A stretch of 64,000 nucleotides of DNA, from the NCBI GenBank assembly GCA_013289685.1, contig JABCZL010000012.1:1-64000 (forward strand). The letters run 5' to 3'. Below, in pieces: positions 159 to 63,458 of the stretch (the first letter of the stretch is position 1; each line of letters begins with the position of its first letter). Under the pieces are notes generated by a model. That model did not search any database. It saw nothing but the letters and a program-made list of their open reading frames with translations, and was not told where the DNA came from. The position numbers and the translations under genes were made by a program. Source of the DNA: Acidobacteriota bacterium. GTDB lineage: Bacteria; Acidobacteriota; Terriglobia; Terriglobales; Acidobacteriaceae.

Positions 159-886
159 GGCGTGCAAGGTTCGTTGTTCTGAATGTGTCGCAGCACTCGT
201 CTGGCATCGAATCTGACCGGATAAAACTTGTCCCCATCGCCGCCATCATCTGCTGGGCCGTCCGCCGGAAGTATGAAGGGGTCCGTTTTGGCGATTTCCC
301 GCAACAAGGGAACGAAGTCTTGCCGATCCTTGCGGCAATCGACGATCTGTCGAACCACATGCGTTCGGACATGCGGCAAAGGGTCATTGAGCGATGAACG
401 AATTAGATCTCTTATGCGAATCTGTGAAGCAGCGTCGTTCCGGGCTTCCAGAAGAGCGACAGCCATGTCTAGTGCCGACATGCGCCGGATGAAGCCAGCC
501 ACGGTCGCAATAAGCCTGTGCATGTAGACCGTTGATGGGTCTTCGGCGTCTTCTTCTTCGTCGCCCTCACAATTATCTGTACCATTTCCGCAGCTGGCCG
601 CAGCCGCGAGCTTGGCCATTTCCATATCGGAGATGTTGTTTCTAGAGTTCTCCGCAGTCAACGATTGGATCACGCCCAGTCGCAGGCGCTCGACATCGCG
701 CGGAGCCGTCTTCTCGGAGGCCAAGAGCTTCGACGCTTCATCAAACGCCTTTTCTCGTTCATCCATCTTTGAGCTGCTCATCCTTTGCAGGATGGCCGAA
801 ACCGTCGGCGGCTCGGCAGGAGCTTGCTGAGCAGCTACTTGAACGACAACAAGCAAAATCGGAACTGTTAAGAATCTGGCACGCAT
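155..886 (-). CDS. Secreted hypothetical protein, possibly helical-repeat
   Basis: About 243 residues from the ATG at 886. The frame stays open further upstream, but only this start puts a signal peptide (MRARFLTVPILLVVVQVAAQQ) at the N-terminus. The mature part is helical, with an acidic stretch (EGDEEEDAEDP) near the middle and a C-terminal section (DPLPHVRTHVVRQIVD) that resembles a HEAT-like repeat, the pattern seen in acidobacterial proteins that count or scaffold in the periplasm. A pair of cysteines flanks the acidic loop. No catalytic motif is visible. Export is supported; any role is unknown. Confidence 0.6.
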   Translation of the reverse strand: MRARFLTVPILLVVVQVAAQQAPAEPPTVSAILQRMSSSKMDEREKAFDEASKLLASEKTAPRDVERLRLGVIQSLTAENSRNNISDMEMAKLAAAASCGNGTDNCEGDEEEDAEDPSTVYMHRLIATVAGFIRRMSALDMAVALLEARNDAASQIRIRDLIRSSLNDPLPHVRTHVVRQIVDCRKDRQDFVPLLREIAKTDPFILPADGPADDGGDGDKFYPVRFDARRVLRHIQNNEPCTP

Positions 887-951
887 TTTTCGCTGTCTTT
901 GGGAGTCAATTATGAGGCTAGGTCGAAGCGCGTGCGAGTAACTTCTGTAAT

Positions 952-1060
952 CAGATGGGATGAGAAGGCCGGTCTCCGGACGGGATGCGGTGTACGCTCC
1001 CAAGTTATCGACGTGCTCGAAGCACAGATAAAAAGGAGACCGGCCTGCTCATCCCATCTG
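952..1060. repeat. Near-perfect 26-bp inverted repeat with 57-nt spacer
   Basis: Arms at 952-977 and 1035-1060 are reverse complements with one mismatch (core GGAGACCGGCC). They lie in the 210-bp gap between the 3' end of the orphan permease gene (ends at 1097, minus strand) and the start of the next minus-strand gene at 886. There is no T-tract, so a simple terminator is unlikely. It could be a small non-autonomous element, a REP-type unit or a regulatory stem. Confidence 0.7.
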
Positions 1061-1096
1061 GTTTCGTCAGCTGAGAATTCGGTCCGGGAGGCGCGA

Positions 1097-3529
1097 CTAC
1101 TCGCAACGTAGGGCAACTAGCGGATCGACTTTAGAGGCGCGACGCGCCGGTATCGCGCAGGCCAAAGCAGACACCAAGCCCAGGATAATCGCTCCGGCCA
1201 GGAGAATGACCGGATCGCGGGCATTCCCTCGTGCCCACTTCGCGATGATTTGACTCAGGGCGAGCGAAAGGGCGACGCCTGCGAAGATTCCAGCACCCAT
1301 GCTTCCCAAGGCCGACCTGAACACGATTCGCAGCAAGTCTCCGCGTTGCGCTCCCAGCGCGAGACGGATCCCAAACTCATTGGTCCGCTGTGCCACCGTG
1401 TAGGACGCCACGCTGTGCAGTCCGATGGCGGCGAGGGCGAGGGCGAGCCACGCAAAGGCGCCGAAGATCCACGCTGCGATATGCTCCTGCTGCCACTCGG
1501 GTTCATAGGTGAGGCGAGTTTCGAGATCACCGGCGAAGGTGGACTGATCCGGATTAATTTCCCGCAACTGCTCGCGCACGGTATTTAGGAGCGTCAGGGG
1601 TGGGACCTCGGAGCGAACCAGAATCTCCGTGCTCTCCCCCATGCTGAACGTATAGGGCACGAAGACGGCGGGTCTGGCGCCGGTCCGCAGACCGTCATTG
1701 CGCGCGTCGTCGACGATGCCGACAATCTGTAACCAGGAACTGCCAATATGCGGCGGTGACAACACTGTGGCCGGGTTGCCTTCGAGACCCGGCATTTTCA
1801 CCGAGTGCCCGATGGCATCGCCATTGGGAAAGTAGCGCTGCGCGAGGGTGCGGTTGATGACGGCTACGTGGGCGCCCCTGGAATTCTCGGCGTCGCTCCA
1901 GATACGCCCTTGCAGCAGAGGAATGCGCAGGACGGAAAAGTAGTCGGGACTAGTTAGGTTGATCGATCCCATTGGAGCGTTCGCCACCGGTTTGCCCAGA
2001 ATCTCAAATCCCATGATCCATCCATTGCGTGGCGGCGTCGCATCCGTGGAAATCGCCGCTGCGGTCACACCGGACGTTTCGGCGACTTTCCCGCGCAACT
2101 GCTCAAAATAGGCGACACGCGCGGGCCAGGTGCGATAGGACTCCTCGCGTAAAGGAATGCCGATCGCCATCACATTGTGCGGATCGAAACCGAGGGGCTG
2201 ATGAATCAACTGGGCGAACCCCTTCATGGAAGAGCCCGCAGCTGCCAGCAACAACAATGTCAGCGCCACTTGCGCGGCGATCAGGATGCTGTGGGTTCTG
2301 CGTCCGCGGACGCTGCCGGCTACGCGACGTGTGCCGGACTGCATGATTTGGCCTATCTGCGTCCGCGAGAGTTGCAGCGCCGGCCAAAGCCCGAACAGCA
2401 CGCCGGTTCCCAGTGCTACCGTGACGCTGAAAACGAGCACAGGCAGGTTGATGCCAATCGATACCTCGGAAGCAAACGAAGATCGCGGCAGCAGACTTTG
2501 AATCACGGCCAGAGCGCCGTAAGACGTCAGAACGCCGATTGCCGCTCCAATGGCGGCGAGAAGCAGCGATTCGGTGAGCAACTGACGAATGATGCGAAGG
2601 CGGCCCGCGCCGATTGCGGTCCTTACCGCCAATTCGTGCTGCCGGGCCGTGCCCCTCGCCAGCAACAGAATTGAGACGTTCCCGCATCCGATCGCGAGCA
2701 GCAACATCACCGCGCCAAAGAGCAAGTACAGCGTTCCACCCAAGGAGCTGACGACCCAGTCGTTCAGTCCTTGCACATGAACCTTGAAGACGTCGGGAAA
2801 ATCGTTCGGCATGTAGCTGGCGAACTGTTCGACGAGCGGCTGAAGCGCGGCGTCGGCCGCGGCCGGGCTGACGCCGGTCCGCAGGAGCAAATTGATGACC
2901 GAAGTGCGCCCCGGATCGCGCATCAGCTTCAGCGGGAGATATACGTCTCCGTCACCCCAGGCGAATCGCGGGGCGGCGACGCCCACGATCTTAAAATTCT
3001 TGTGATCCAGTTGCAGCGCGTGACCCAATACGTCTGGGTTGGATAAGTAGTGTTTGCGCCAGAATTTGTAAGAGAGCACTACGATAGGTTGCGGCTCCTG
3101 GCCATCAACTGCGTCAGATGGCCAGATTCCGCGCCCCAGCAGCGGGGGAACGCCGAGATCCTGAAAAGCATTCGAGATCAGGCTTACGGCGTTGACGCTC
3201 TCCGGAAGATCTTGCCCGGTCAGCATCAGCGCGTTGTAGTCCATGGTCAGAACGCTCTCGACCACGGGGGATTGACGCAAAGTCTGAATCTCGGCACCGT
3301 TTAGGACGACGGGATCCCCGGAACCTGCTTTGCTGTCCACCGTGAGCCGCACAATTCGATCCGCCGCAGGGTAGGGATAAGGATTTACGAGCGCCGCATA
3401 AATCACGCTGAACACAGCGGTCGCTGCTCCAATGCCGAGCGCCAGGGAGAGGACTGCGGTCAGCGTGAATCCTGCACTCTTGATGAGCTGACGCGCAGAG
3501 TAGCGGAGATCCTGAAGCAAAGTGTGCAT
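1097..3529 (-). CDS. Acidobacterial duplicated orphan permease (MacB/FtsX-like)
   Basis: 810 residues. The N-terminus (LLQDLRYSARQLIKSAGFTL followed by a hydrophobic helix, LALGIGAATAVFSV) is diagnostic for the ADOP family, in which a MacB periplasmic core plus FtsX permease unit is present twice in one chain. FtsX-type helices lie around residues 265-425 and again near 690-800 (FGIRLALGAQ, then the ARRASKVDPLVALR tail). The family is known to lack a neighbouring ATPase, and none is seen here. ATG 3529 has CAGGAG eight bases upstream. The substrate is unknown; roles in lipoprotein, peptide or antibiotic export are inferred from MacB. A second member lies at 50913-53354. Confidence 0.9.
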   Translation of the reverse strand: MHTLLQDLRYSARQLIKSAGFTLTAVLSLALGIGAATAVFSVIYAALVNPYPYPAADRIVRLTVDSKAGSGDPVVLNGAEIQTLRQSPVVESVLTMDYNALMLTGQDLPESVNAVSLISNAFQDLGVPPLLGRGIWPSDAVDGQEPQPIVVLSYKFWRKHYLSNPDVLGHALQLDHKNFKIVGVAAPRFAWGDGDVYLPLKLMRDPGRTSVINLLLRTGVSPAAADAALQPLVEQFASYMPNDFPDVFKVHVQGLNDWVVSSLGGTLYLLFGAVMLLLAIGCGNVSILLLARGTARQHELAVRTAIGAGRLRIIRQLLTESLLLAAIGAAIGVLTSYGALAVIQSLLPRSSFASEVSIGINLPVLVFSVTVALGTGVLFGLWPALQLSRTQIGQIMQSGTRRVAGSVRGRRTHSILIAAQVALTLLLLAAAGSSMKGFAQLIHQPLGFDPHNVMAIGIPLREESYRTWPARVAYFEQLRGKVAETSGVTAAAISTDATPPRNGWIMGFEILGKPVANAPMGSINLTSPDYFSVLRIPLLQGRIWSDAENSRGAHVAVINRTLAQRYFPNGDAIGHSVKMPGLEGNPATVLSPPHIGSSWLQIVGIVDDARNDGLRTGARPAVFVPYTFSMGESTEILVRSEVPPLTLLNTVREQLREINPDQSTFAGDLETRLTYEPEWQQEHIAAWIFGAFAWLALALAAIGLHSVASYTVAQRTNEFGIRLALGAQRGDLLRIVFRSALGSMGAGIFAGVALSLALSQIIAKWARGNARDPVILLAGAIILGLVSALACAIPARRASKVDPLVALRCE

Positions 3530-20315: not shown

Positions 20316-20507
20316 TCTCCCGTATGTACGTGATTCTGTAAGCCTCCATAGTAGAACGCGCAGCGACGCTCGTCTTGCACTTTATTTCCGCGCATACCCC
20401 GCCAGTTACTAACGTTCCGGTCTTTTGCGACTAGATTACGAAACCTCTTCGTGACAAGATGTGCAGACCTCCAGGAACAAAGAACAACAGGACCCACTGA
20501 GATCCCT

Positions 20508-23500
20508 ATGAGCCTAGGCACCGCCTCGACTGTGGTTGAGACCTCTGCAACCGAGACCACCGAAAACGTAAAGAGCGTTGCCACTCCAGCGTGGCGCAAG
20601 GGATTCTGGTCGCTGGTGATCACCCAATTCCAGGGCGCGTTCAACGAGAATGGCCTGAAGAATCTGGTGATCTTCCTCATTCTTGGCATGGCGATGCAGA
20701 AGGCCGACCGTGACCGGTTGGTCTTAATCGTTGGCACGCTGTTCTCTTTGCCGTTCATTCTCTTCTCGATGACGGGCGGCTTTCTCGCCGACCGATATAG
20801 CAAGCGCACCGTCACCATCTGGACAAAGTTTTTCGAGATGGCTGTCATGGTGCTGGCCATCACGGGACTGGGCTGGCACAACCTGAACCTTGAAATGGCG
20901 GCGGTTTTTCTCGCAAGCACCCAGGGAGCCCTCTTCGGGCCGTCCAAGTACGGATTGCTCCCGGAGTTATTGCCGGAGCCGCTGCTCTCCTGGGGCAATG
21001 GCGTGCTCGAACTCGGCACGTTCCTCGCAGTGATTGCGGGAATGGTTGCCGGTGCGTTTCTGGCAGACTTTTTTCAGACGCACCAGGGATGGTCAGGGCT
21101 TATCTTTCTCGGTCTGTCATGCCTGGGCTTGATCTTCAGTCTTGGAATCACGAAAGTTCCTGCCGCTGATCCCACAAAAAAGTTTCGTGCCAACCCGATT
21201 GGCGACTTATGGGTGCAAGGGCGCTTGATCCGCAAGGATCGAGTTCTCTGGCTGGCGGTGCTCGGCAACACCTATTTCTGGTTTCTGGGCGCGCTGCTGA
21301 CCGCGAACATTGTGTTCTACGGCAGCGATGTGCTGCACATCAGCTCCACCCGTTCTGGGATTCTTCAGGCCGCAGTCGCGATTGGAATCGGCCTGGGGAG
21401 TCTGACCGCAGGGTATCTTTCGAGTGGAAAAGTCGAATATGGATTGATCCCGCTGGGTTCGGTGGGCATGACCGTATTCGGGATCATGCTTTCCGGACGG
21501 AACCTTTCCTTTGCGCATGTGCTGGCGCTGCTGGCTGCTCTGGGCTTCTCGGCCGGCTTCTTCGCCGTTCCCGTCAATGCACTTATCCAACACCGTCCGG
21601 ACGAAAAAGATAAAGGCGGTGTGATCGCTGCGGCGAACCTGCTTTCCTTCGTTGGCATCGGGGGAGCCGCTGGCATCTACTACTGCTTCCAGCACTATAC
21701 GCATCTGAGCCCGCCGGCGATCTTTCTTTCCGCCTCGCTGATGACGGTCGCTGCTACGGCCTACGTGTTGTATCTGCTGCCCGACGCGTTGCTTCGGCTG
21801 CTGCTGTGGATCGCGACTCACACTCTCTATCGGATTCATCTCCAAGGCCGTGACAATGTTCCCGCCAAAGGCGGCGCGCTGCTGGTGCCGAATCATGTTT
21901 CGATGGTGGACGCGGTTCTGCTCATCGCCTCCATCGATCGTCCGATCCGTTTCCTTATGTTCAAGGGATCGTACGATCATCCGCTGGTGAAACCGTTTGC
22001 CAGGATCATGAAGGTGATTCCGATCTCGTCGCAGTTTCGTCCGCGCGAGATGATTCAATCCCTGCGCACCGCAACTCAGGCACTGAAGGACGGCGAGGTC
22101 GTTTGCATCTTTCCCGAAGGCCAGATGACGCGCATCGGCCAGATGCTTCCATTCCGACGCGGCATGGAAAGAATCATGAAAGGCTTGGATGCGCCGATCA
22201 TCCCCGTAAATCTTGGCGGCGTCTGGGGATCGATCTTCAGCTTCGAGCGCGGAAAATTCCTATGGAAGCTGCCCCGCCGGATTCCGTATCCGGTCACCGT
22301 AACTTTCGGCAAACCGATGCCCGCGACCACCAGCGCGCAGGAAGTGAGGCAGGCGGTGCAGGAACTCGGCGCCGAGGCCTATCACTTCCGCAAACGCTAC
22401 ATGCGCACTCTGCATCGCTCCTTCGTGCAAACCGCGCGGCGGCATCCTCTGCGCTTTGCCATGGCAGACGGCCGCACTCCGAAAGTCACGTTCGGCAAGA
22501 CTTTGACCAGTACCGTCTTCCTCGCGCGTCGGCTTCGATCCGTCTGGCCGGATCAAAACATGGTTGGCATCTTGCTCCCTCCATCGGTTCCCGGAGCGCT
22601 GATCAACCTGGCTGCGCTTCTCATGGGCAAGGTTCCTGTCAATCTAAACTACACGGCGTCGAACGAAGTGCTGGCGTCTTGCGCCCGGCAATGCGAACTG
22701 AAAACCGTGATTACGTCGAAGGCCTTTCTGGAACGCGTTCACATCCAGGTGCCGGAGCAAGCCATCATGCTGGAAGATCTCGCGGCCAATCCTGGCTCGT
22801 TCGAAAAGCTGACAGCTGCTCTCATCGCATGGTTGCTGCCGGTGCGGCTCATCGAAAAATCCGTGGGAGCACGCCGCAAGACCGGCCTCGACGACATCGC
22901 CACGGTCATCTTCTCCAGCGGCAGCACGGGCGATCCCAAGGGTGTCGTGCTCACTCACTACAACATCGCGTCCAATGTGGAGCAACTGAATCAGGTCTTC
23001 ATGCTCGGACGGAACGACAAGATTCTCGGAATTCTGCCTTTCTTTCATTCTTTTGGTTTTACCGGGACGCTGTGTCTGCCAACTACCATCGGGATGGGTG
23101 TGGTGTTCCATCCCAACCCGCTCGAACCGCGGGCCATCGGAGCGCTGGTCAGCCAATATGGTGTCACGTTCCTGCTGGCGACGCCGACTTTCTTGCAGGC
23201 CTACATCCGGCGCTGCGAACCGGAAGACTTCGGCAGCCTGCAATACGTGATGGCCGGCGCCGAGAAGCTTCCGGAGCGAACCTCGGTCGCTTTTGAAGAC
23301 CGCTTCGGAGTGCGCCCGCTCGAAGGTTATGGCTGCACCGAATGTTCCCCAGCCGTTACCGTGAACACTCGCGACTTTCGAGCAGCGCAATTCCGCCAGG
23401 TAGGCGCAAAGCGCGCCAGCATCGGGCATCCGCTGCCGGGCATCAGCGTCAGGATCGTGAATCCGGAGACTTTTGATCCTCTGCCGTTAGGCGAGGCCGG

Positions 23501-23972
23501 TTTGCTATTGGTGCGCGGCCCCAACGTGATGCAGGGATATTTGAATCGACCCGAGAAAACCGCCGAAGTCTTGCGCGACGGATGGTACAACACGGGCGAC
23601 ATTGCCGCGGTGGATGAGGACGGATTCATCCGCATCACCGACCGTTTGAGCAGGTTCAGCAAAATCGCCGGAGAAATGGTGCCCCACATCAAGGTCGAGG
23701 ACAAGCTTCACGAACTAAGCGGCTCGACCGAACAAACCTTCGCAGTCACGTCGGTTCCCGATGAGAAGAAAGGTGAGCGCCTGATGGTGCTGCACACTCT
23801 GGCTGACGACAAACTGGAAGCCTGCCTCGCCCTGCTCGCCAAGTCGGACTTGCCAGCGTTGTGGAGACCGCGACCCGATCAGTTTGTCCATGTGGATTTG
23901 CTGCCATACCTGGGTACGGGAAAACTAGACCAGCGGCGACTGAAGGAAATCGCAACCGAAGCGTCGCTCTGA
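20508..23972 (+). CDS. aas: Three-domain LplT-PlsC-Aas lysophospholipid recycling protein
   Basis: 1154 residues. Residues 20-430 are a 12-helix MFS domain like the lysophospholipid flippase LplT (FWSLVITQFQGAFNENGLKN). Then a PlsC acyltransferase with NHVSMVD (462-468) and FPEG (535-538), then an AMP-forming acyl ligase with SSGSTGDPKG (803-812), GYGCTECSP (from 940) and YNTGDIAAVDEDGF. In E. coli LplT and Aas are separate adjacent genes; together they flip lysophosphatidylethanolamine inward and re-acylate it with acyl-ACP. All motifs look intact. ATG 20508 is preferred to a GTG 57 bases earlier because the MFS domain begins soon after. Confidence 0.92.
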   Translation: MSLGTASTVVETSATETTENVKSVATPAWRKGFWSLVITQFQGAFNENGLKNLVIFLILGMAMQKADRDRLVLIVGTLFSLPFILFSMTGGFLADRYSKRTVTIWTKFFEMAVMVLAITGLGWHNLNLEMAAVFLASTQGALFGPSKYGLLPELLPEPLLSWGNGVLELGTFLAVIAGMVAGAFLADFFQTHQGWSGLIFLGLSCLGLIFSLGITKVPAADPTKKFRANPIGDLWVQGRLIRKDRVLWLAVLGNTYFWFLGALLTANIVFYGSDVLHISSTRSGILQAAVAIGIGLGSLTAGYLSSGKVEYGLIPLGSVGMTVFGIMLSGRNLSFAHVLALLAALGFSAGFFAVPVNALIQHRPDEKDKGGVIAAANLLSFVGIGGAAGIYYCFQHYTHLSPPAIFLSASLMTVAATAYVLYLLPDALLRLLLWIATHTLYRIHLQGRDNVPAKGGALLVPNHVSMVDAVLLIASIDRPIRFLMFKGSYDHPLVKPFARIMKVIPISSQFRPREMIQSLRTATQALKDGEVVCIFPEGQMTRIGQMLPFRRGMERIMKGLDAPIIPVNLGGVWGSIFSFERGKFLWKLPRRIPYPVTVTFGKPMPATTSAQEVRQAVQELGAEAYHFRKRYMRTLHRSFVQTARRHPLRFAMADGRTPKVTFGKTLTSTVFLARRLRSVWPDQNMVGILLPPSVPGALINLAALLMGKVPVNLNYTASNEVLASCARQCELKTVITSKAFLERVHIQVPEQAIMLEDLAANPGSFEKLTAALIAWLLPVRLIEKSVGARRKTGLDDIATVIFSSGSTGDPKGVVLTHYNIASNVEQLNQVFMLGRNDKILGILPFFHSFGFTGTLCLPTTIGMGVVFHPNPLEPRAIGALVSQYGVTFLLATPTFLQAYIRRCEPEDFGSLQYVMAGAEKLPERTSVAFEDRFGVRPLEGYGCTECSPAVTVNTRDFRAAQFRQVGAKRASIGHPLPGISVRIVNPETFDPLPLGEAGLLLVRGPNVMQGYLNRPEKTAEVLRDGWYNTGDIAAVDEDGFIRITDRLSRFSKIAGEMVPHIKVEDKLHELSGSTEQTFAVTSVPDEKKGERLMVLHTLADDKLEACLALLAKSDLPALWRPRPDQFVHVDLLPYLGTGKLDQRRLKEIATEASL

Positions 23973-24042: not shown

Positions 24043-24738
24043 ATGAAATTCGGCGTCATCATCTTTCCCGGTTCGAATTGCGATCACGATGCCCACTGGA
24101 CGATTCAGCACGTCGCCAAGCAACCGGTTACGTTCCTGTGGCACGAGTCGCACGACCTGGAAAACTGTGACGCCGTCATCGTCCCCGGAGGTTTTGCCTT
24201 CGGCGATTACCTGCGCACAGGTGCGATTGCAAAGTTCTCGCCAGTGATGGAATCGGTCCGCAAGTTCGCCGACGGCGGCGGATTTGTGCTCGGCATCTGC
24301 AACGGTTTTCAGATCCTGTGCGAGTCGGGTCTGCTACCCGGCGCCCTAATGCGCAACCTCGGCCTTAAATACGTCTGCAAGCCGGTGCAGGTTCGAGTGG
24401 AAAATGTGGAGACTCCCTTCACCAATGCCTGCGCGAACGGAGAGGTCCTAACCATCCCCATCGGCCACATGGAAGGCAACTACTTCTGCGATCCCGCCAC
24501 GCTTGATGAGTTACACAGGGACAATCGTGTCGTGTTTCGCTATTCCTCACCCGGCGGCGAGATCACAGCCGCCGCCAATCCCAACGGCTCTTTGGACAAC
24601 ATCGCAGGCATCTGCAGCCACGGGCGCAATGTCGTCGGCATGATGCCTCACCCCGAGCGCTCCGCCGAACCGGAACTGGGCGGCACCGACGGGATGAAAG
24701 TATTCCAGTCGATGGTTGGCGCTATGGCCGCCAGATAA
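24043..24738 (+). CDS. purQ: Phosphoribosylformylglycinamidine synthase, glutaminase subunit PurQ
   Basis: 231 residues, the usual length for the stand-alone subunit. FPGSNCDHD at the N-terminus, [15 protein letters not shown], the nucleophile elbow GICNGFQIL (Cys86) and the C-terminal [15 protein letters not shown] with catalytic His and Glu are all present. PurQ releases ammonia from glutamine for PurL in step four of purine synthesis, in complex with PurS. purS and purL are not in the window, so the gene is detached from its partners here. A hairpin overlaps its ribosome-binding site. Confidence 0.97.
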
Positions 24739-24898: not shown

Positions 24899-26218
24899 AT
24901 GACACCGAAGCAGATTCTAGATTCTTTCTCAGAAACACTAATGCGGGACGAGCGGATTCTCAGCGCGCCAGAACGCGCGCTGGTGGCCACTCTGCTGCAC
25001 CATGCCAAAGCGTCGAGCAGTGCGAACCCGGAAACGCAGGAAGCAGTCCGGGCCGTCATTGCCTCGGCTATAGGAGAAACTGTAGCGCAACGCGCGTTCG
25101 CCGTGCTTGGCGGCAGCATTGTAGAACGCATCCTTGAGGGTAGTAAATTCTCGCAGGATGACTCCGGTGTGGTGCGCGGCGGGGAGATCCACACTGGGCC
25201 GCATCCTCCATTTGAGCCGCAGCCCCCAAACGACCTGCAGGGTACGGCGGTGGAGATTCAAAACCCCAACGCACCGCTGCGGATGAAAACCGAACCCGAT
25301 CCGCCGTCGGGACAGCCGCACCCGGGACCGGGCGTGCGAGCGCCGCACAAAGAACCCCAGCCTCCGTCCAGGCCGATGAGTGAGCCAGATCCGCCGTCAG
25401 GACAGCCGCACCCACCGGGGCCGGGTGTGCGAGCGCCACACAAAGAACCCCAGCCTCCGTCCAGGCCGATGGGCGAGCCAGATCCGCCGTCGGGAAACCC
25501 ACATCCGCCGGGGCCGGGTGTTCGCGCGCCACGCACAGAACCAGATCCGCCCAGTGCCGCGCGTACGACGGTCATGTCACAAAGCAGCGCAGCTGTTGCC
25601 GAGCGGCCGCCAGTCTTGCCGGCGCAATGCGTGGTGCTGAACGAATTCCTTGCGCCCCAGGAACTTGAAGAACTCATGCGCTTCACGCTGGAGCACGAAT
25701 CCGACTTCAGCGCCAGCACAGTGGTTTCTCCGCGCGCGGAGAGTGGCGTGGTCAATTATGATCACCGGCGCTCCCGCGTTCTGATGGACCTGGCTCAACA
25801 CCAGGACGTGATGCTGGAGCGCATCAAGTCCGTGTTGCCGCAGGTTCTGGATAAGCTCGGCATGGAGGAATTCTCCATCGCCGACGTGGAAGCCCAGGTC
25901 ACCGCCAGCAACGACGGAGACTTCTTCCACTTCCACAGCGATAACGGCAGCGAGCGGGTGGCCACGCGTTATCTGACGTTTGTCTACTTCTTCCATCGCG
26001 AGCCCCGGCAGTTCGAAGGAGGTGAACTGCGGATTCACGACTCGCGCCTGCAAGATGGGGCTTACGTCAGCGAAGGCAGTTACCAGACGATCGTTCCGCA
26101 ACAAAACCAGATCGTCCTTTTCCCGTGCGAAATGCTGCACGAGATTACCCCGGTGAATTGCGCATCCCAGCTCTTCGCCGACAGCCGCTTTACCTTAAAC
26201 GGATGGCTTCGTCGTTGA
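24899..26218 (+). CDS. 2OG-Fe(II) oxygenase with unknown N-domain and proline-rich repeats
   Basis: 439 residues in three parts. Residues 1-80 are a helical domain of unknown type (ILDSFSETLMRDERILS; VRAVIASAIGETVAQRAF; VLGGSIVERIL). Residues about 95-225 are extremely Pro-rich, with three near-identical 30-31-residue units beginning EPDPPSG. Residues 240-439 are a prolyl-4-hydroxylase-like oxygenase with iron ligands His346, Asp348 (FHFHSDNG) and His414 (CEMLHEITP) and the 2-oxoglutarate Arg430. ATG 24899 has GGGGAGG ten bases upstream; the GTG at 24890 is too close to it. A second oxygenase overlaps its 3' end. Hydroxylation of its own proline segment is an attractive but unproven idea. Confidence 0.85.
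   Translation: MTPKQILDSFSETLMRDERILSAPERALVATLLHHAKASSSANPETQEAVRAVIASAIGETVAQRAFAVLGGSIVERILEGSKFSQDDSGVVRGGEIHTGPHPPFEPQPPNDLQGTAVEIQNPNAPLRMKTEPDPPSGQPHPGPGVRAPHKEPQPPSRPMSEPDPPSGQPHPPGPGVRAPHKEPQPPSRPMGEPDPPSGNPHPPGPGVRAPRTEPDPPSAARTTVMSQSSAAVAERPPVLPAQCVVLNEFLAPQELEELMRFTLEHESDFSASTVVSPRAESGVVNYDHRRSRVLMDLAQHQDVMLERIKSVLPQVLDKLGMEEFSIADVEAQVTASNDGDFFHFHSDNGSERVATRYLTFVYFFHREPRQFEGGELRIHDSRLQDGAYVSEGSYQTIVPQQNQIVLFPCEMLHEITPVNCASQLFADSRFTLNGWLRR
25292..25567 (+). repeat. Three 90-93-bp in-frame proline-rich repeats
   Basis: Units at 25292-25381, 25382-25474 and 25475-25567 each start EPDPPSG, continue with PHP(P)GPGVRAP and, in the first two, end KEPQPPSRPM. Units 1 and 2 are almost identical at the DNA level, including third codon positions, which indicates recent duplication; unit 3 has diverged at its end. 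Confidence 0.9.
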
Positions 26219-27276
26219 TCAACACGGCAAACAACCCGGCGTGGCTGGAGTGGATGACTACCCTCATGGCGGGGCCGTCCGAGGAAGGAGTGTCGCGGCA
26301 CACCTATGCCGCGACACTTCCTCCCAATCGCTTTTATTGCGTGCTGGATGAACTGCCTGTGCATTTGATCCCGCGACGCATTTTCAAATCATTGCAGCTT
26401 GAAAAACTTCGACGTCAGCTTCTGTACCTGAATCCAGAATGTATCGTGTGTCCCGACGGGGAATTGCCGGATGAACTTCTATCCGGTAGGGAATTGCTGT
26501 CGGGATTTGCGCTGCAGGGAGCTATCGCATGGGTGCGCGATCCGGTGACTCGCGCCCTGCGTCCTTTCTGGCTCGGACCGCAGTTGGAGGACGCGTTGAG
26601 CAGTCTGCGTCCGAATGACCCGGTGCCATCGTCGGTGCCGGACCGCGCACAAAACCTGTTGGCGGCCGCCGATATCCTGATTCCCGAAGACCGAATCAAC
26701 CCACGCCATCGGCAACGCGAAGAGATGATCCGGAAGGCGTCGCCGCTATTTCGTGAGAAGGGCTATGCGCCGCTCGGCGACTTGATCCATCCGTTTCACC
26801 TCGCCGCTTTGCGCCGCTATTATCGCTACCTGATTCGCACCGGCGCGATCCGCCTGGGCGATGGCCAGAGTCCCCGCCGCTATGTGGCCTACAACGAACC
26901 CGTGGCGCGCTTCTTCCACTATGACATTGCAGCCACTCTGAGCGCCGTGGCCGGGCAAGTGCTCAAGCCCTCTTACGTCTACATGGCCTCGTACCTGAGC
27001 GGAGCGGAGCTGAAGAAACACACCGACCGCGAGCAATGCGAATTCAGCGTCACTCTCTGCCTGGATTTCACACCCGAACCCGCGCTTGAAACTCCATGGC
27101 CGATTCGCCTGGACACTCCTACCGGCAAGCTCACCGCCTATCAAGCTCTGGGGGACGGCCTCGCCTACCGCGGAACTCGATTGCCTCACTACCGCGATGT
27201 GCTCCGCGAAGGCCAGACTTCAACGTCTATCTTCTTTCACTACGTCGCCGCAGACTTCTCGGGATCGTTGGACTGA
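26203..27276 (+). CDS. Second putative 2OG-Fe(II) oxygenase, coupled to the first
   Basis: 357 residues from ATG 26203, which overlaps the preceding oxygenase by 16 bases and implies translational coupling. The frame is open upstream but there it lies inside the first gene. The last 100 residues look like a jelly-roll oxygenase: VYMASYLSGAELKKHTDREQ supplies His273 and Asp275, RGTRLPHYRD supplies His329, and TSTSIFFHYV is the closing strand. The N-terminal 250 residues are not recognised; CIVCP contains a CxxC. It probably hydroxylates a peptide or protein substrate, perhaps the proline-rich segment encoded just upstream. The assignment rests on the H-x-D...H pattern. Confidence 0.7.
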   Translation: MASSLINTANNPAWLEWMTTLMAGPSEEGVSRHTYAATLPPNRFYCVLDELPVHLIPRRIFKSLQLEKLRRQLLYLNPECIVCPDGELPDELLSGRELLSGFALQGAIAWVRDPVTRALRPFWLGPQLEDALSSLRPNDPVPSSVPDRAQNLLAAADILIPEDRINPRHRQREEMIRKASPLFREKGYAPLGDLIHPFHLAALRRYYRYLIRTGAIRLGDGQSPRRYVAYNEPVARFFHYDIAATLSAVAGQVLKPSYVYMASYLSGAELKKHTDREQCEFSVTLCLDFTPEPALETPWPIRLDTPTGKLTAYQALGDGLAYRGTRLPHYRDVLREGQTSTSIFFHYVAADFSGSLD

Positions 27277-27340
27277 AAAAGATTGGATTAAAAAAGATTG
27301 GATTGAAAAAGATTGGATTGAAAAAGATTGGACTGAAGTG
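27266..27340. repeat. 15-bp tandem repeat straddling a stop codon
   Basis: Five units of the form GATTGGATTGAAAAA follow each other from 27266 to 27340, the first (CGTTGGACTGAAAAA) containing the stop codon of the second oxygenase. The later units are more alike than the outer ones. In the next reading frame they would code for DWIEK repeats. Confidence 0.85.
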
Positions 27341-27366: not shown

Positions 27367-29943
27367 TTAGCGTAAGCCCGAGACGAGATACAGAACCGAC
27401 AAGGCCTGATTGTAGCTGTACACGAAGCGAGTTCCATCGCGGCTGACCACCACTGGGGCCACGTTAACCACTCCCGCCGGCGCTCCTGGTTTCAGTTCCT
27501 GCAGCACAGTTTGGGTTCCCGTAGAGATCTCGACCCTGTAAATCTTGCTGGGGAGTTCGCCCAGGTGGTAGCCGTAAAGCACCGAGCCGTCGTTGGACCA
27601 TTGCACGGGCAGAAAACCGGCTTCCAGTCCTGGGATGGTTCGAGGCGCGCCGTCGCCTATGGGATAGATTGCCACGGCCGAACTCGGCCCGACGCCCACC
27701 ACGAATCGGCTGTCGGGTGCCGAGGGACCGCACACAGTCCCTTCCGGGGTTACTGCCTTTGGCTTTGCGCCAGCCAGGTCGAGCACAAAGCACCGGGTCG
27801 CATGCCCCTTCTCATTGCCATTAGCAATCAGCCTTTGACCATCCGAGAGGAAGCGAGCCCATCCGTTATGAATGTGCTCCAGTGCGCTTACGTCGACAGG
27901 ACGAGGCTGGCCGGGCCCGGTCGGCAGAAGCGTTACCTGCTCTGGGTTTCCGGTAGAGATTGAGATGGCCCATTTACCGTCTGGCGAGAGTCCGCCCGCG
28001 CTGCCATCGCCCAGACGAACCGGCAGCGTGCCGTCCAGCTTGCGCAGTGCTACGGTGTAGCCCGGTCCCGCAGCCTCGCTGGCATCCCCAAAGAGCACGA
28101 ACTGTCCATCGCGCGAAATGTCCTTGGCGACGTTCCAGTCGTGCCAGGATAGTTCCACATTTTCCTTATTGCCGAGAGTGCTAAACGCCATCGCCAGCCG
28201 CTTGGAGTTCAACGCGACCAGAACTCGGCCGTCCGCAGCAATATCCTGCAGTGTGATCGCCATGGGCAAGTCCAGCAGCATGCGGACTTTGCCGGACATG
28301 CTGACCGCCATCAGATTGAGGTTGTTGCCCTTCTCTACCGCGGTAAACCATATCTCGTTTCCGTCCGGGCGCCACGCCAGTCCCTGCTCCGACGCCCATT
28401 CTCCCGTTAACACCTTGACGTGCCCCGCCAGGTCAACCACAGAGACCGCTCCGCGATGGTCCCAGAGCTCCGGGTGATCCATGAACGCGATCTTGTCGCC
28501 TTGGGGAGAGAAACGAATGTTGCTGATCCAGCCGCTGCTTTGATAGAGCACTCTACCGATGGGGTATTCCAGACGGCTGTGGCCGTCGACATAATGCACC
28601 ACCGCCAACCCGCCCTTCGCGTCCCAGTCCGCCCAGCGCACGTCCGCCAGTATCTCCTTCGGAGATCCTCCCGCCAGCGGTGTTCGTCCCAGCATTCCGT
28701 CGATGGTTTCCAGTTGGCCGTTGTGCGTGCCGTGCAGCACGACCGCGAGTTCGTTGCCATGGGAGATTGCCAGCAGATTGGCATCGCTCAAATTCAGCGG
28801 CTGGGTCAGCAGAGAGGTTCCCACCGTGGAGAACAGCTGGACCGGCTTGCCGTCCCATGCCGCGCCGTACACGATCTGACCTTCAGGTGCGAAGCGCGCG
28901 GAATATACCGTGCCCGCTTCGAACGTTAAGCGCTCATAAGCCGGAGGCGAAGCTGGAGTTCGAAGCAGTTGCGCCAGCAACAAAAGTACAGTCGCCGCAG
29001 CCAGCACTCCCGCGACCGCCCAGGGCAGAGCCGACGTCGTTCGAGTGATCGGCCTGGGCGAGGGAAGTGCTCTGGCCGGCGACGCCGAAAGCGTCTGCAA
29101 GGTAAAAACCAGATCCTTAGCAGACTGGAAGCGGTTCTCCGGCTCCTTCTCCAGACAATGCCTGACGATGTCCTGATATCCTGCCGGAATCGCAGCCGCG
29201 TCCAGGCTGGCCGTTGCCGGTTCTTCGCGCAGGACTGCGGTTATCGTGTCCACTTCGGTCTCACCGCGAAACGCGCGGCGTCCCGCCATCATCTCGTAGA
29301 GAATCGCGCCGAAGCTGAAAATGTCGCTGCGGTGGTCCACCGGCTTGCCCCGCAGTTGCTCCGGGGACATATAGGCGACGGTGCCAACCATCCCTCCCTG
29401 CTTGGTCACCGTGGTCAGGTCTTCGATGGAGCGCATATCTTCGGGCGGAGTCTGCAGTTTGGCTACACCGAAATCCAGAATCTTTATTCGCCCGTCATTG
29501 GTCAGAAACAGATTTTCCGGTTTGAGATCGCGATGCACAATGTGCCGGTCGTGAGCCGCGGTAAGACCCTGTGCGATCTGCAGCGCGTAGTCCGCGGCAT
29601 CTCGCACGGAGATGGGGCCTTCCGACAGGCGCTGCCGCAGGTCCTTGCCCTGGAGCAGTTCCGAGACAATGTACGGCACGGTGCCTTCGAAACCGACGTC
29701 ATAGATGGCAAGAATGTTGGGATGGTTGAGCGCGGCGGCCGCCCGCGCTTCCTGTTCGAAGCGGCGTAAGTGATCGGGATTGTCGCTGGAGGCCGGCCGG
29801 ATCAGCTTCAGTGCGACCTCGCGTCCCAGCCTTTCGTCGCGCGCGCGAAAGACTTCGCCCATCCCTCCTGCGCCAATTTGTTCGAGGACCCGGTAGTGCC
29901 CCACCAGCCGGCCAGTCATAAGTGATAAGCGCGCCCTTTGCAT
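27367..29943 (-). CDS. Membrane Ser/Thr protein kinase with C-terminal beta-propeller
   Basis: 858 residues. The kinase domain covers about 15-280 with GAGGMGEVFRA, Lys46, HRDLKPEN (catalytic Asp139), DFG 157-159 and the APE-equivalent SPEQLRG. One transmembrane helix (LPWAVAGVLAAATVLLLLAQ) near 305-325 separates it from an extracytoplasmic TolB/WD40-like propeller (about 335-858; RFSPQGDKIAFMD, WRPDGNEIWF, LSPDGKWAIS). This is a typical acidobacterial sensor kinase. ATG 29943 is given; ATG 29919 (MTGRLVGHYRV) is equally possible because neither has a clear ribosome-binding site. Confidence 0.93.
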   Translation of the reverse strand: MQRARLSLMTGRLVGHYRVLEQIGAGGMGEVFRARDERLGREVALKLIRPASSDNPDHLRRFEQEARAAAALNHPNILAIYDVGFEGTVPYIVSELLQGKDLRQRLSEGPISVRDAADYALQIAQGLTAAHDRHIVHRDLKPENLFLTNDGRIKILDFGVAKLQTPPEDMRSIEDLTTVTKQGGMVGTVAYMSPEQLRGKPVDHRSDIFSFGAILYEMMAGRRAFRGETEVDTITAVLREEPATASLDAAAIPAGYQDIVRHCLEKEPENRFQSAKDLVFTLQTLSASPARALPSPRPITRTTSALPWAVAGVLAAATVLLLLAQLLRTPASPPAYERLTFEAGTVYSARFAPEGQIVYGAAWDGKPVQLFSTVGTSLLTQPLNLSDANLLAISHGNELAVVLHGTHNGQLETIDGMLGRTPLAGGSPKEILADVRWADWDAKGGLAVVHYVDGHSRLEYPIGRVLYQSSGWISNIRFSPQGDKIAFMDHPELWDHRGAVSVVDLAGHVKVLTGEWASEQGLAWRPDGNEIWFTAVEKGNNLNLMAVSMSGKVRMLLDLPMAITLQDIAADGRVLVALNSKRLAMAFSTLGNKENVELSWHDWNVAKDISRDGQFVLFGDASEAAGPGYTVALRKLDGTLPVRLGDGSAGGLSPDGKWAISISTGNPEQVTLLPTGPGQPRPVDVSALEHIHNGWARFLSDGQRLIANGNEKGHATRCFVLDLAGAKPKAVTPEGTVCGPSAPDSRFVVGVGPSSAVAIYPIGDGAPRTIPGLEAGFLPVQWSNDGSVLYGYHLGELPSKIYRVEISTGTQTVLQELKPGAPAGVVNVAPVVVSRDGTRFVYSYNQALSVLYLVSGLR

Positions 29944-33260: not shown

Positions 33261-34148
33261 ATGCCCGCTGTGGGCCACACTCCTCCCATACCGCCGCCTA
33301 CTCCGCCCTCGTGTTCGGAGTGTGCCAGCAAAACGCAGCCTGCTGGAGGTGGAGCGCCAACCCAGACTGCCTCGCGCATGTGGCGTTCGAGCGACGGCAA
33401 GACGCGCATCGACATGCCCCAGACCAGCGTCATCTCCGATCCGATTTCAAAGCACACCATTGTGCTCGATCACCTGAAGAAGGAAGCGAGCATCATCCCG
33501 ATGCCTCCACCGGGGTCCCCAGCTGTGCCGCCGGGCGCGTCGCCAGCAGCTGCCGCCGCCCTCCATCCCTCGTCTCTACATGTGCAGGACCTGGGCAAGT
33601 CGATGATCGAGGGACACGAAGTCGAGGGCAAGCGCTACACCCTGCCCCACGTCCCGCCGCCTCCCAAGCCCCAGATCCCGGGGAGGGCGATACCAGGGAT
33701 GAAGATCCCCGGAATGAAAGTGCCCGGCGCGCCACCGGTGCCCGGAGTAAAGATGCCCGGTGCCCCGCCGTTGCCCGGAGCAAAGATGCCCGCTGCTCCA
33801 GCGGCGCCGGGGGCCAAACTGCCCGATGCTCCCTCAATGCCGAAGCCGCCCGGCGCCCCGGCGCCCCCACAAAAGCCAAAGCTGCCAGCGTTGCCGAGCG
33901 TAGCTGAGGTGTGGACCAGCGTGAAGTTGAAGACCCCGGTGTTGACCAAGGTCACAACCGCGGCGGGTGAGCACACGACGTATTGCAAACCCACGTTAAC
34001 CGCAGAGCATCCCCCGTCTGTCTTTCAGATTCCGCCGGGATATACGATCAAGCCACCCAAGCCGCCCACTGTGCCCAAGCCGCCCGCTATGCCCAAGCCG
34101 CCAGCTATGCCAAAGCTGCCCGCTATGCCCAAGCTGCCGAAGACGTGA
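33261..34148 (+). CDS. Proline-rich hypothetical protein with PGxKMPGAPP-type repeats
   Basis: 295 residues. Short globular pieces (RMWRSSDGKTRIDMPQTSV; ISDPISKHTIVLDHLKKEA; MIEGHEVEGKRYTLP; VAEVWTSVKLKTPVLTKVTT; GEHTTYCKPTLTAEHPPSVF) resemble a family of exported acidobacterial proteins of unknown role. They are interrupted by two Pro-rich blocks, one of degenerate pentad-decad repeats (KIPGMKVPGAPPVPGVKMPG) around residue 150-200 and one of PPAMPKP units at the end. No signal peptide is seen at ATG 33261 and a stop lies 13 bases upstream, so the export sequence may have been lost or the start is different. Confidence 0.6.
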   Translation: MPAVGHTPPIPPPTPPSCSECASKTQPAGGGAPTQTASRMWRSSDGKTRIDMPQTSVISDPISKHTIVLDHLKKEASIIPMPPPGSPAVPPGASPAAAAALHPSSLHVQDLGKSMIEGHEVEGKRYTLPHVPPPPKPQIPGRAIPGMKIPGMKVPGAPPVPGVKMPGAPPLPGAKMPAAPAAPGAKLPDAPSMPKPPGAPAPPQKPKLPALPSVAEVWTSVKLKTPVLTKVTTAAGEHTTYCKPTLTAEHPPSVFQIPPGYTIKPPKPPTVPKPPAMPKPPAMPKLPAMPKLPKT

Positions 34149-63173: not shown

Positions 63174-63458
63174 CAGGCTGCAGAAAAACGCACGATTCTG
63201 TCTGGTCGTGAAAGGGCGCGGCTTTAAGCCGCGCCTTAAGTCCAGAAAAATCAACCGCGGCTTTACAGTTTGCTGAAAAACTCGGGCTTGTCGCTGTTAC
63301 AGTGGAGGAGCGGCCCTTTAGGGCCGCGTAAGCCGTTGAAAATTAATCGGGGCTTCACAGTTTGCTGAAAAACTCGGATTTGTCGGTGCTACCGTGGAAG
63401 AGCGGCCCTTTAGGGCCGCGTAACCCGTTGAAAATTAATCTGGGGCTTCAGCCCTCGT
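63174..63458. repeat. Composite REP-like array, copy 2 with duplicated unit B
   Basis: Unit A (63176: GCTGCAGAAAAACGCACGAT, GGGCGCGGCTTTAAGCCGCG) is followed by two copies of unit B (from about 63266 and 63358), each with TTTGCTGAAAAACTCGG, the palindrome GCGGCCCTTTAGGGCCGC and TTGAAAATTAATC(T)GGGGCTT. It is homologous to 57546-57772 and separates the two DUF4870 genes. The remaining bases to 63691 include a last ACTGAGTTTTTCAGCA fragment in inverse orientation. Confidence 0.85.

Follow-up and report, generated by a model that had tools for sequence, protein, structure and literature searches.

A prolyl-hydroxylase-like enzyme with a fused proline-rich array and an overlapping oxygenase-fold gene in Acidobacteriaceae

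The first 64,000 nucleotides of contig JABCZL010000012.1 from an Acidobacteriota bacterium of the family Acidobacteriaceae (assembly GCA_013289685.1; hereafter the window) carry two overlapping genes on the forward strand, P1 (24899-26218; 439 aa, an open reading frame (ORF) with GGGGAGG 5' of its ATG) and P2 (26203-27276; 357 aa, a second metal-triad protein of oxygenase fold), which form a conserved acidobacterial pair. The reading that we prefer, at a likelihood a little short of even, is that P1 is a peptidyl-prolyl hydroxylase carrying its own substrate array, with P2 as its partner. The reading builds on observed features, namely domain order, metal residues, predicted fold, gene overlap, co-occurrence, motif constraint and separate proline-rich ORFs beside related enzymes in two genomes; that prolines are hydroxylated, that the array is the substrate, what P2 does and any link to a neighboring kinase are what we infer from sequence. 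The catalytic domain of P1 would hydroxylate prolines in [G/A/D/E]-P-x-P-P units of the array, acting either in cis or from one subunit on another. P2, translated from the same message through its overlapping start, would modify the array further or complete the active complex. The N-terminal domain (N-domain) of P1 would be an assembly or docking part, not the leader of a ribosomally synthesized and post-translationally modified peptide (RiPP). Glycosylation would be possible only in lineages with a glycosyltransferase of the hydroxyproline-arabinosyltransferase (HPAT) family, and a link to kinase signaling is a guess from position alone.

A preliminary description of this DNA, made from its letters, had given P1 an ~80-residue helical N-domain, proline-rich repeats and a hydroxylase-like domain, and the predicted fold, Pfam and Tandem Repeats Finder bear out this build. 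In the AlphaFold2 model (mean predicted local distance difference test score (pLDDT) 66.6), helices span residues 3-16, 23-38, 44-70, and 73-84; most of 84-233 is modeled at a pLDDT below 50, and from ~240 on the chain forms a double-stranded beta-helix. All parts lie on the forward strand: the N-domain, with its four predicted helices and no known family (residues 1-84; 24899..25150), the disordered array (about residues 95-226; 25181..25576) with its 93-nt tandem repeats (25291..25542; 2.7 copies, 86% matches, 30-31 aa units), and the prolyl-hydroxylase-like 2-oxoglutarate (2OG)-Fe(II) domain (residues 240-439; 25616..26215). PF13640 matches residues 333-438 (E 8.7e-17, 62.3 bits vs a cut-off of 27). 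The active-site residues H346 (25934-25936), D348 (25940-25942), H414 (26138-26140), and R430 (26186-26188), described earlier as intact, are invariant across a 25-row P1 alignment. By sequence and predicted fold, P1 thus has the double-stranded beta-helix, the H-x-D...H motif and the 2OG-binding Arg of 2OG-Fe(II) prolyl hydroxylases. All 50 of the 50 Foldseek matches listed are prolyl hydroxylases, the top one being the P. putida P4H (E 7.5e-11) and many being PHD2 entries. Sequence profile matches of the domain include Dictyostelium PHD (5.7e-12), P. putida P4H (8.7e-6), a PKHD hydroxylase (3.3e-5), TPA1, and OGFOD1, and Tpa1/OGFOD1 superimpose on it with Z 15.2 and a root-mean-square deviation (rmsd) of 2.7-2.8 over 170-172 aligned residues. 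The fold searches hardly covered the N-domain and the N-terminal region of P2. The N-domain gave no match above cut-off in Pfam and NCBIfam, and homology candidates for it were not accepted (the top PDB profile match had E 0.26; among weak Pfam rows, Mor being one, the lowest E was 0.0049, in 2/9 members).

P2 had been described as a second 2OG-Fe(II) oxygenase, and this holds for the metal triad (H273-x-D275 and H329), which is invariant in a 31-row alignment, but not for the usual 2OG-binding Arg, in whose place P2 has Ser/Thr. In its predicted model (pLDDT 87.8, predicted template-modeling score 0.87), a double-stranded beta-helix begins near residue 170, so that by predicted fold and sequence P2 has both the oxygenase fold and the triad. 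Fold matches include 6n1f (Z 15.0, rmsd 2.4, 171 aligned), HalB (14.9, 2.9, 190), SnoN (14.9, 2.8, 179), PHD2 (14.5, 3.6, 190), and P. putida P4H (14.1, 2.7, 170). As these lie within 1 Z unit of one another, the fold cannot name P2 a prolyl hydroxylase; the matches of P1, by fold and by sequence profile, are more telling. Near residues 339-341, where the equivalent of PHD2 R383 is expected from the aligned ends of the fold alignments, there is no Arg or Lys; the nearly invariant S340 and T341 stand there. The invariant R276 and R331 could replace the usual Arg (codons, forward strand: H273, 27019-27021; D275, 27025-27027; H329, 27187-27189; R331, 27193-27195). P2 has no curated family match in Pfam and NCBIfam (four weak NCBIfam rows, none an oxygenase), and its profile finds no PDB sequence up to E 10. 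The conserved N-terminal region (26308..26712, forward strand) has no Pfam family. As a candidate RiPP recognition element, the window's copy is without a Pfam match, nine members gave one chance-level row, and the fold search hardly covers the region. The idea of a receptor specific for the N-domain as a leader was rejected, because P2-bearing loci without an N-domain keep the region.

The overlap of the two genes, reported earlier as 16 bp, is 26203-26218 (16 nt), with the start codon of P2 within the final Gly-Trp codons of P1. Among 38 distinct P1 genes it is 16 nt in 34, 22 nt in three (L055, L069, L070) and unreadable in one. Because the overlap is kept across P1 genes, we infer translational coupling of the two. 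The preliminary description had also proposed looking for co-occurrence, and this was found: across the family (398 genomes), 43 genomes carry the N-domain, 50 carry P2, and 40 carry the two together. The N-domain genomes without P2 are G014 (an apparent deletion), G037 (at a contig end), and G637, in which the N-domain is split by a frame change and P2 and the kinase were not found at the locus. Ten genomes have P2 without the N-domain (G024, G036, G040, G057, G064, G214, G503, G508, G686, G713); of these, G036, G057, and G713 are at contig ends, the match in G686 is a fragment of 20 residues, and those in G024, G503, and G508 are partial and distant. P2 of G076 and of G710 each have one internal stop codon. 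In wider samples the N-domain is found in 2/396 genomes phylum-wide and P2 in 7/240 class-wide. The closest relatives of P2 are in metagenome-assembled genomes (MAGs) named Candidatus Sulfotelmatobacter or Acidobacteriaceae, at best 79% identical.

The array is present in 38 of 38 complete, distinct P1 proteins, at 64-214 residues and 22-36% Pro. This set was left from 64 complete P1 ORFs after removal of identical oxygenase sequences, with partial or frame-split P1 kept out (e.g., L035/L066, L045, L046, L054/L099/L141, L097, L086/L145, L098/L142, L140). Pooled over 121 pairs, which share sequences and are non-independent, the ratios of nonsynonymous to synonymous differences (pN/pS) of the N-domain and the enzyme are 0.20 and 0.21, and that of the array is 0.54; the array evolves faster than the slow N-domain and enzyme. 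In 33/38 arrays the longest exact internal repeat exceeds that of all 200 self-shuffles. The repeat unit varies by genome (GPQPPS, APQPPG, GPRPPQP, GPGPK, FAPRPPSPGPPSPG, and others), and [GADE]P.P is present in 38/38 arrays. The longer motif [GADE]P.PP occurs 146 times vs 19.9 expected from shuffles (7.3-fold) when all copies are counted, and 50 vs 19.9 (2.5-fold, reached by 0/500 shuffles) when each different word is counted once; in six arrays from six genera the numbers are 24 vs 4.0 and 9 vs 3.9 (7/500 shuffles), respectively. Over all copies, PQPP is 24-fold over shuffles. PPP is depleted, 8 vs 78.6 (0.1-fold; words once, 4 vs 30.8), and is seen in 4/38 arrays.

Proline-rich segments of other genes served as a control. 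In 16 of them, [GADE]P.PP is at expectation (4 vs 4.1 over all copies, 4 vs 4.3 words once) and PPP occurs 15 times vs 20.2. These 16 were chosen by a rule that removed P1-type segments alone, and include mutual homologs, the L072/L038 peptide and an L136 segment that may be a repeat of class B (below). The initial 20 segments, which contained four P1-type array segments, gave 17 vs 5.4. Nine kept by hand gave 3 vs 2.6; the 11 removed were four P1-type segments, the L072/L038 peptide, an antisense ORF, a poly-TP run, and four in doubtful ORFs. One control, a proline-rich repeat ORF of the window without a Pfam family (33261-34148), has a similar ORF at L048:9772-10476. In 14 ortholog pairs, chosen by hand and aligned in a way that favors Pro-Pro matching, Pro is kept at 318/375 aligned array positions with Pro in either member, as against 61% for other residues, and 167 of the 318 kept prolines are on different codons. 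Because prolines in a set context are held and the remainder of the array drifts, a substrate fits these sequences better than a spacer, although a stiff spacer could also keep its prolines.

In some genomes the parts are separated. In G214 the N-domain is absent, and a 68-residue ORF (L173:1660-1866; AAGGAG at its start, 29% of its residues Pro) stops 15 nt short of the ATG of the oxygenase, which is followed by P2 and the kinase. G057 is represented by L072, a 3.3-kb contig on which P2, a match to PF23452 (HPAT), a second PF13640 enzyme, and a proline-rich ORF lie within 807-3253, and which also carries the end of a kinase gene; the proline-rich ORF (L072:2443-2898; 151 residues) has a leader-like region followed by four near-identical repeats. 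The leader was searched for in 100 genomes and found in G057 only. That relatives encode a proline-rich stretch in a small gene of its own suggests this stretch as the target of the enzymes. The substrate-plus-enzyme idea of the preliminary description is thus supported by the array in every distinct P1, the kept overlap and the separate ORF of G214; its suggestion of a hydroxylated surface linker found no support. PF23452 was found in 4/250 genomes of the family. In two of them, G033 and G574, related short proline-rich repeat peptides (147 and 88 residues) adjoin a clear HPAT match and a kinase, with no adjoining PF13640 gene (L161:4839-6176 and L162:6929-8555; 88 and 147 aa).

Two further classes of locus have an oxygenase pair. 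In class B (L136:8328-18000; L039:7700-17697), a glycosyltransferase gene and two genes for proteins of >1000 aa lie upstream of the pair, whose overlap is likewise 16 nt at both loci. Three of the four giant proteins were searched and none had a Pfam match; one in L136 has VPVKPI repeats. Genome G600 holds class B and the fused form together. In class C (L075:1526-6810; L076:1496-6735), the oxygenase is fused to another, unknown N-terminal domain without an array, and in L075 P2 is joined to a sulfotransferase recognized by Pfam, with a long ORF homologous to it in L076. Genes of DUF1826 and polysaccharide pyruvyl transferase type lie nearby, and the hosts are an acidobacterium and a deltaproteobacterial MAG. 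In the P2 tree, which has some weak forks and midpoint rooting, class B, class C, and G214 fall outside the N-domain group and L072 falls beside it.

Several of these results weigh against P1 as an enzyme with its own substrate array. VIA-align of the P1 fold also gives PKHD oxygenases (3dkq, PiuC) and the uncharacterized 6n1f, at most 1 Z from the prolyl hydroxylases. Much of the motif excess is tandem copying, as seen in the fall from 7.3-fold to 2.5-fold. The oxygenase ORFs of class B (L039, L136) and class C (L075, L076) are without an array, so that the pair exists without it; the preliminary description had named homologs lacking any proline-rich region as telling against its proposal, and in part such homologs were found, as the distant P2-adjacent oxygenases of L039, L136, L137, L075, and L076 have none in the same ORF. 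G014 has the N-domain and array without the enzymes, though as an apparent deletion: its neighboring kinase is also cut, to ~112 residues, so that the locus looks like a deletion or an assembly join, and a free precursor was rejected. The proline-rich ORF of G214 could be a split fusion, since it shares a frame with the oxygenase across a single TAG. As for glycosylation, the HPAT match of L072 is weak (27.2 bits vs a cut-off of 23.9) and G057 is outside the four HPAT genomes; in the other two of these (L159, L160) no proline-rich peptide or kinase was seen beside HPAT; and PF23452 was not found in the window's genome (G000) nor in 13 listed genomes of its genus.

The strongest alternative is that the array is merely a stiff, disordered tether from the N-domain to the enzyme, the real substrate being another protein of the cell, which we take as a serious possibility, if on the unlikely side. 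The array is predicted to be disordered, its length ranges widely, and its fast change is also typical of tethers; unrelated genes here have proline-rich segments as well, and P.PP itself is not enriched when tandem copies are counted once (63 vs 65.4). A tether would leave unexplained why the 16 control segments lack both the [GADE]P.PP excess and the avoidance of PPP. In G214, split fusion or not, there is no N-domain to tether, yet a proline-rich ORF is upstream, and in G057 a lone proline-rich peptide ORF is beside a hydroxylase-like gene.

The pair could instead be a two-subunit hydroxylase of a translation component such as EF-Tu or a ribosomal protein, comparable to PPHD and OGFOD1/Tpa1, with the array tuning localization or regulation. 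The nearest folds do include P. putida P4H, a hydroxylase of EF-Tu (PMC4543633), and Tpa1/OGFOD1, and classes B and C keep the pair without the array. The sparse spread (50/398 genomes) would be odd for a modifier of a translation factor and the array motif is left unexplained, which makes this account rather improbable. A peptide natural product, with the N-domain as leader and the array as a multi-copy core, cleaved and exported after modification, as the preliminary description had also considered, would suit the conserved N-domain with hypervariable repeats and the leader-like start of the L072 ORF, but is highly improbable: in the window the array is fused to its enzyme and a separate precursor ORF is seen in relatives only, leaders elsewhere differ or are missing, the neighbors purQ and kinase are conserved (yebC is often also near), and reading of ORF lists and synteny, in which not every neighbor was family-searched, turned up neither a maturation peptidase nor a peptide exporter next to the pair, an unlinked one aside.

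The enzyme that carries its own substrate may also be one form of a home-grown acidobacterial hydroxyproline-rich peptide system, in which fast-evolving P-x-P-P or proline-rich repeat peptides are fused to or adjoin a dedicated hydroxylase pair. Some lineages would add HPAT-family glycosyltransferases next to them, and a kinase of propeller type, usually adjacent, may sense oxygen or metabolic state through the modified array. This wider proposal is unlikely as a whole, though far from negligible. If true, the system would be a bacterial counterpart of the plant hydroxyproline-rich glycoproteins and of Skp1 hydroxylation-glycosylation.

Parts of the arrangement have parallels. P1 shares the catalytic fold, H-x-D...H...R and a profile match with PPHD of P. 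putida, HIF PHD2 and Dictyostelium PHD, but in none of these systems is a fused proline array known to us, nor a second oxygenase gene that overlaps the first. Tpa1/OGFOD1, whose catalytic-domain fold P1 shares, have two double-stranded beta-helix domains acting together; in the present pair the second domain is encoded by a gene of its own, keeps the metal triad and has another N-terminal region. Borosins also are enzymes that carry their own substrate, but the modification is methylation rather than hydroxylation, the core is C-terminal and the product is cleaved. Plants have hydroxyproline-rich proteins together with P4H and HPAT. As in the plant and Skp1 systems, proline-rich repeats here are accompanied by a prolyl hydroxylase and, in one locus, by an HPAT-family transferase; unlike them, the system is bacterial, its genes adjoin, and the window's genome has no HPAT match. 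The B. anthracis prolyl 4-hydroxylase and the collagen-like proteins are encoded by separate genes, with no known P2; bacterial prolyl hydroxylation of proline repeats would be common to both systems, but the B. anthracis repeats are of the collagen Gly-X-Y type. Prolyl hydroxylation in bacteria is already known, as are proteins in which a core is fused to its enzyme.

A literature search, with subscription papers mostly outside it, revealed no description of a prolyl hydroxylase that is fused to a hypervariable proline array and overlapped by the gene of a second oxygenase. The substrates of PPHD, PHD2, and Dictyostelium PHD are separate proteins, EF-Tu, HIF, and Skp1, respectively, and in the Dictyostelium Skp1 pathway hydroxylation is followed by glycosylation (PMC4543633); proline repeats of collagen-like type are hydroxylated by the B. 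anthracis enzyme in synthetic peptides (PMC8968730). The bacterial substrates reported in these two papers are separate proteins or peptides (PMC4543633; PMC8968730). If our reading of P1 is true, an enzyme that names its own fast-evolving substrate makes bacterial protein prolyl hydroxylation testable in one recombinant protein, and offers a possible bacterial parallel to hydroxyproline-rich proteins. P2, as an overlapping oxygenase without the usual 2OG-binding Arg and without a curated family, merits study itself.

Of 30 loci with P2, 25 have both the N-domain and P2 (L047-L062, L064, L065, L067-L071, L073, L074), and in these the surroundings of the pair were compared. A convergent protein kinase gene (27367..29943, reverse strand) adjoins P2 in 25/25 of these. 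Its homolog in L032 combines a Pkinase domain with a C-terminal half of propeller type. Compared with the kinase of the window, that of G214 aligns along its entire length (46%), and the kinase end in L072 matches at 37% in its final 57 residues. A 15-bp repeat (27268-27337; 4.7 copies) runs from the last codons of P2 into the gap before the kinase gene. A purQ-like glutamine amidotransferase gene (24043..24738, forward strand) is upstream in 22/25 pair loci, one of the other three reaching a contig edge; it is syntenic and not thought to be part of the module. Further upstream, 20451-23972 encodes a three-domain fusion of a major facilitator superfamily transporter, an acyltransferase and an AMP-binding enzyme. 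Near the far end of the window, a 92-bp tandem repeat occupies 63247-63450 (2.2 copies, 89% matches).

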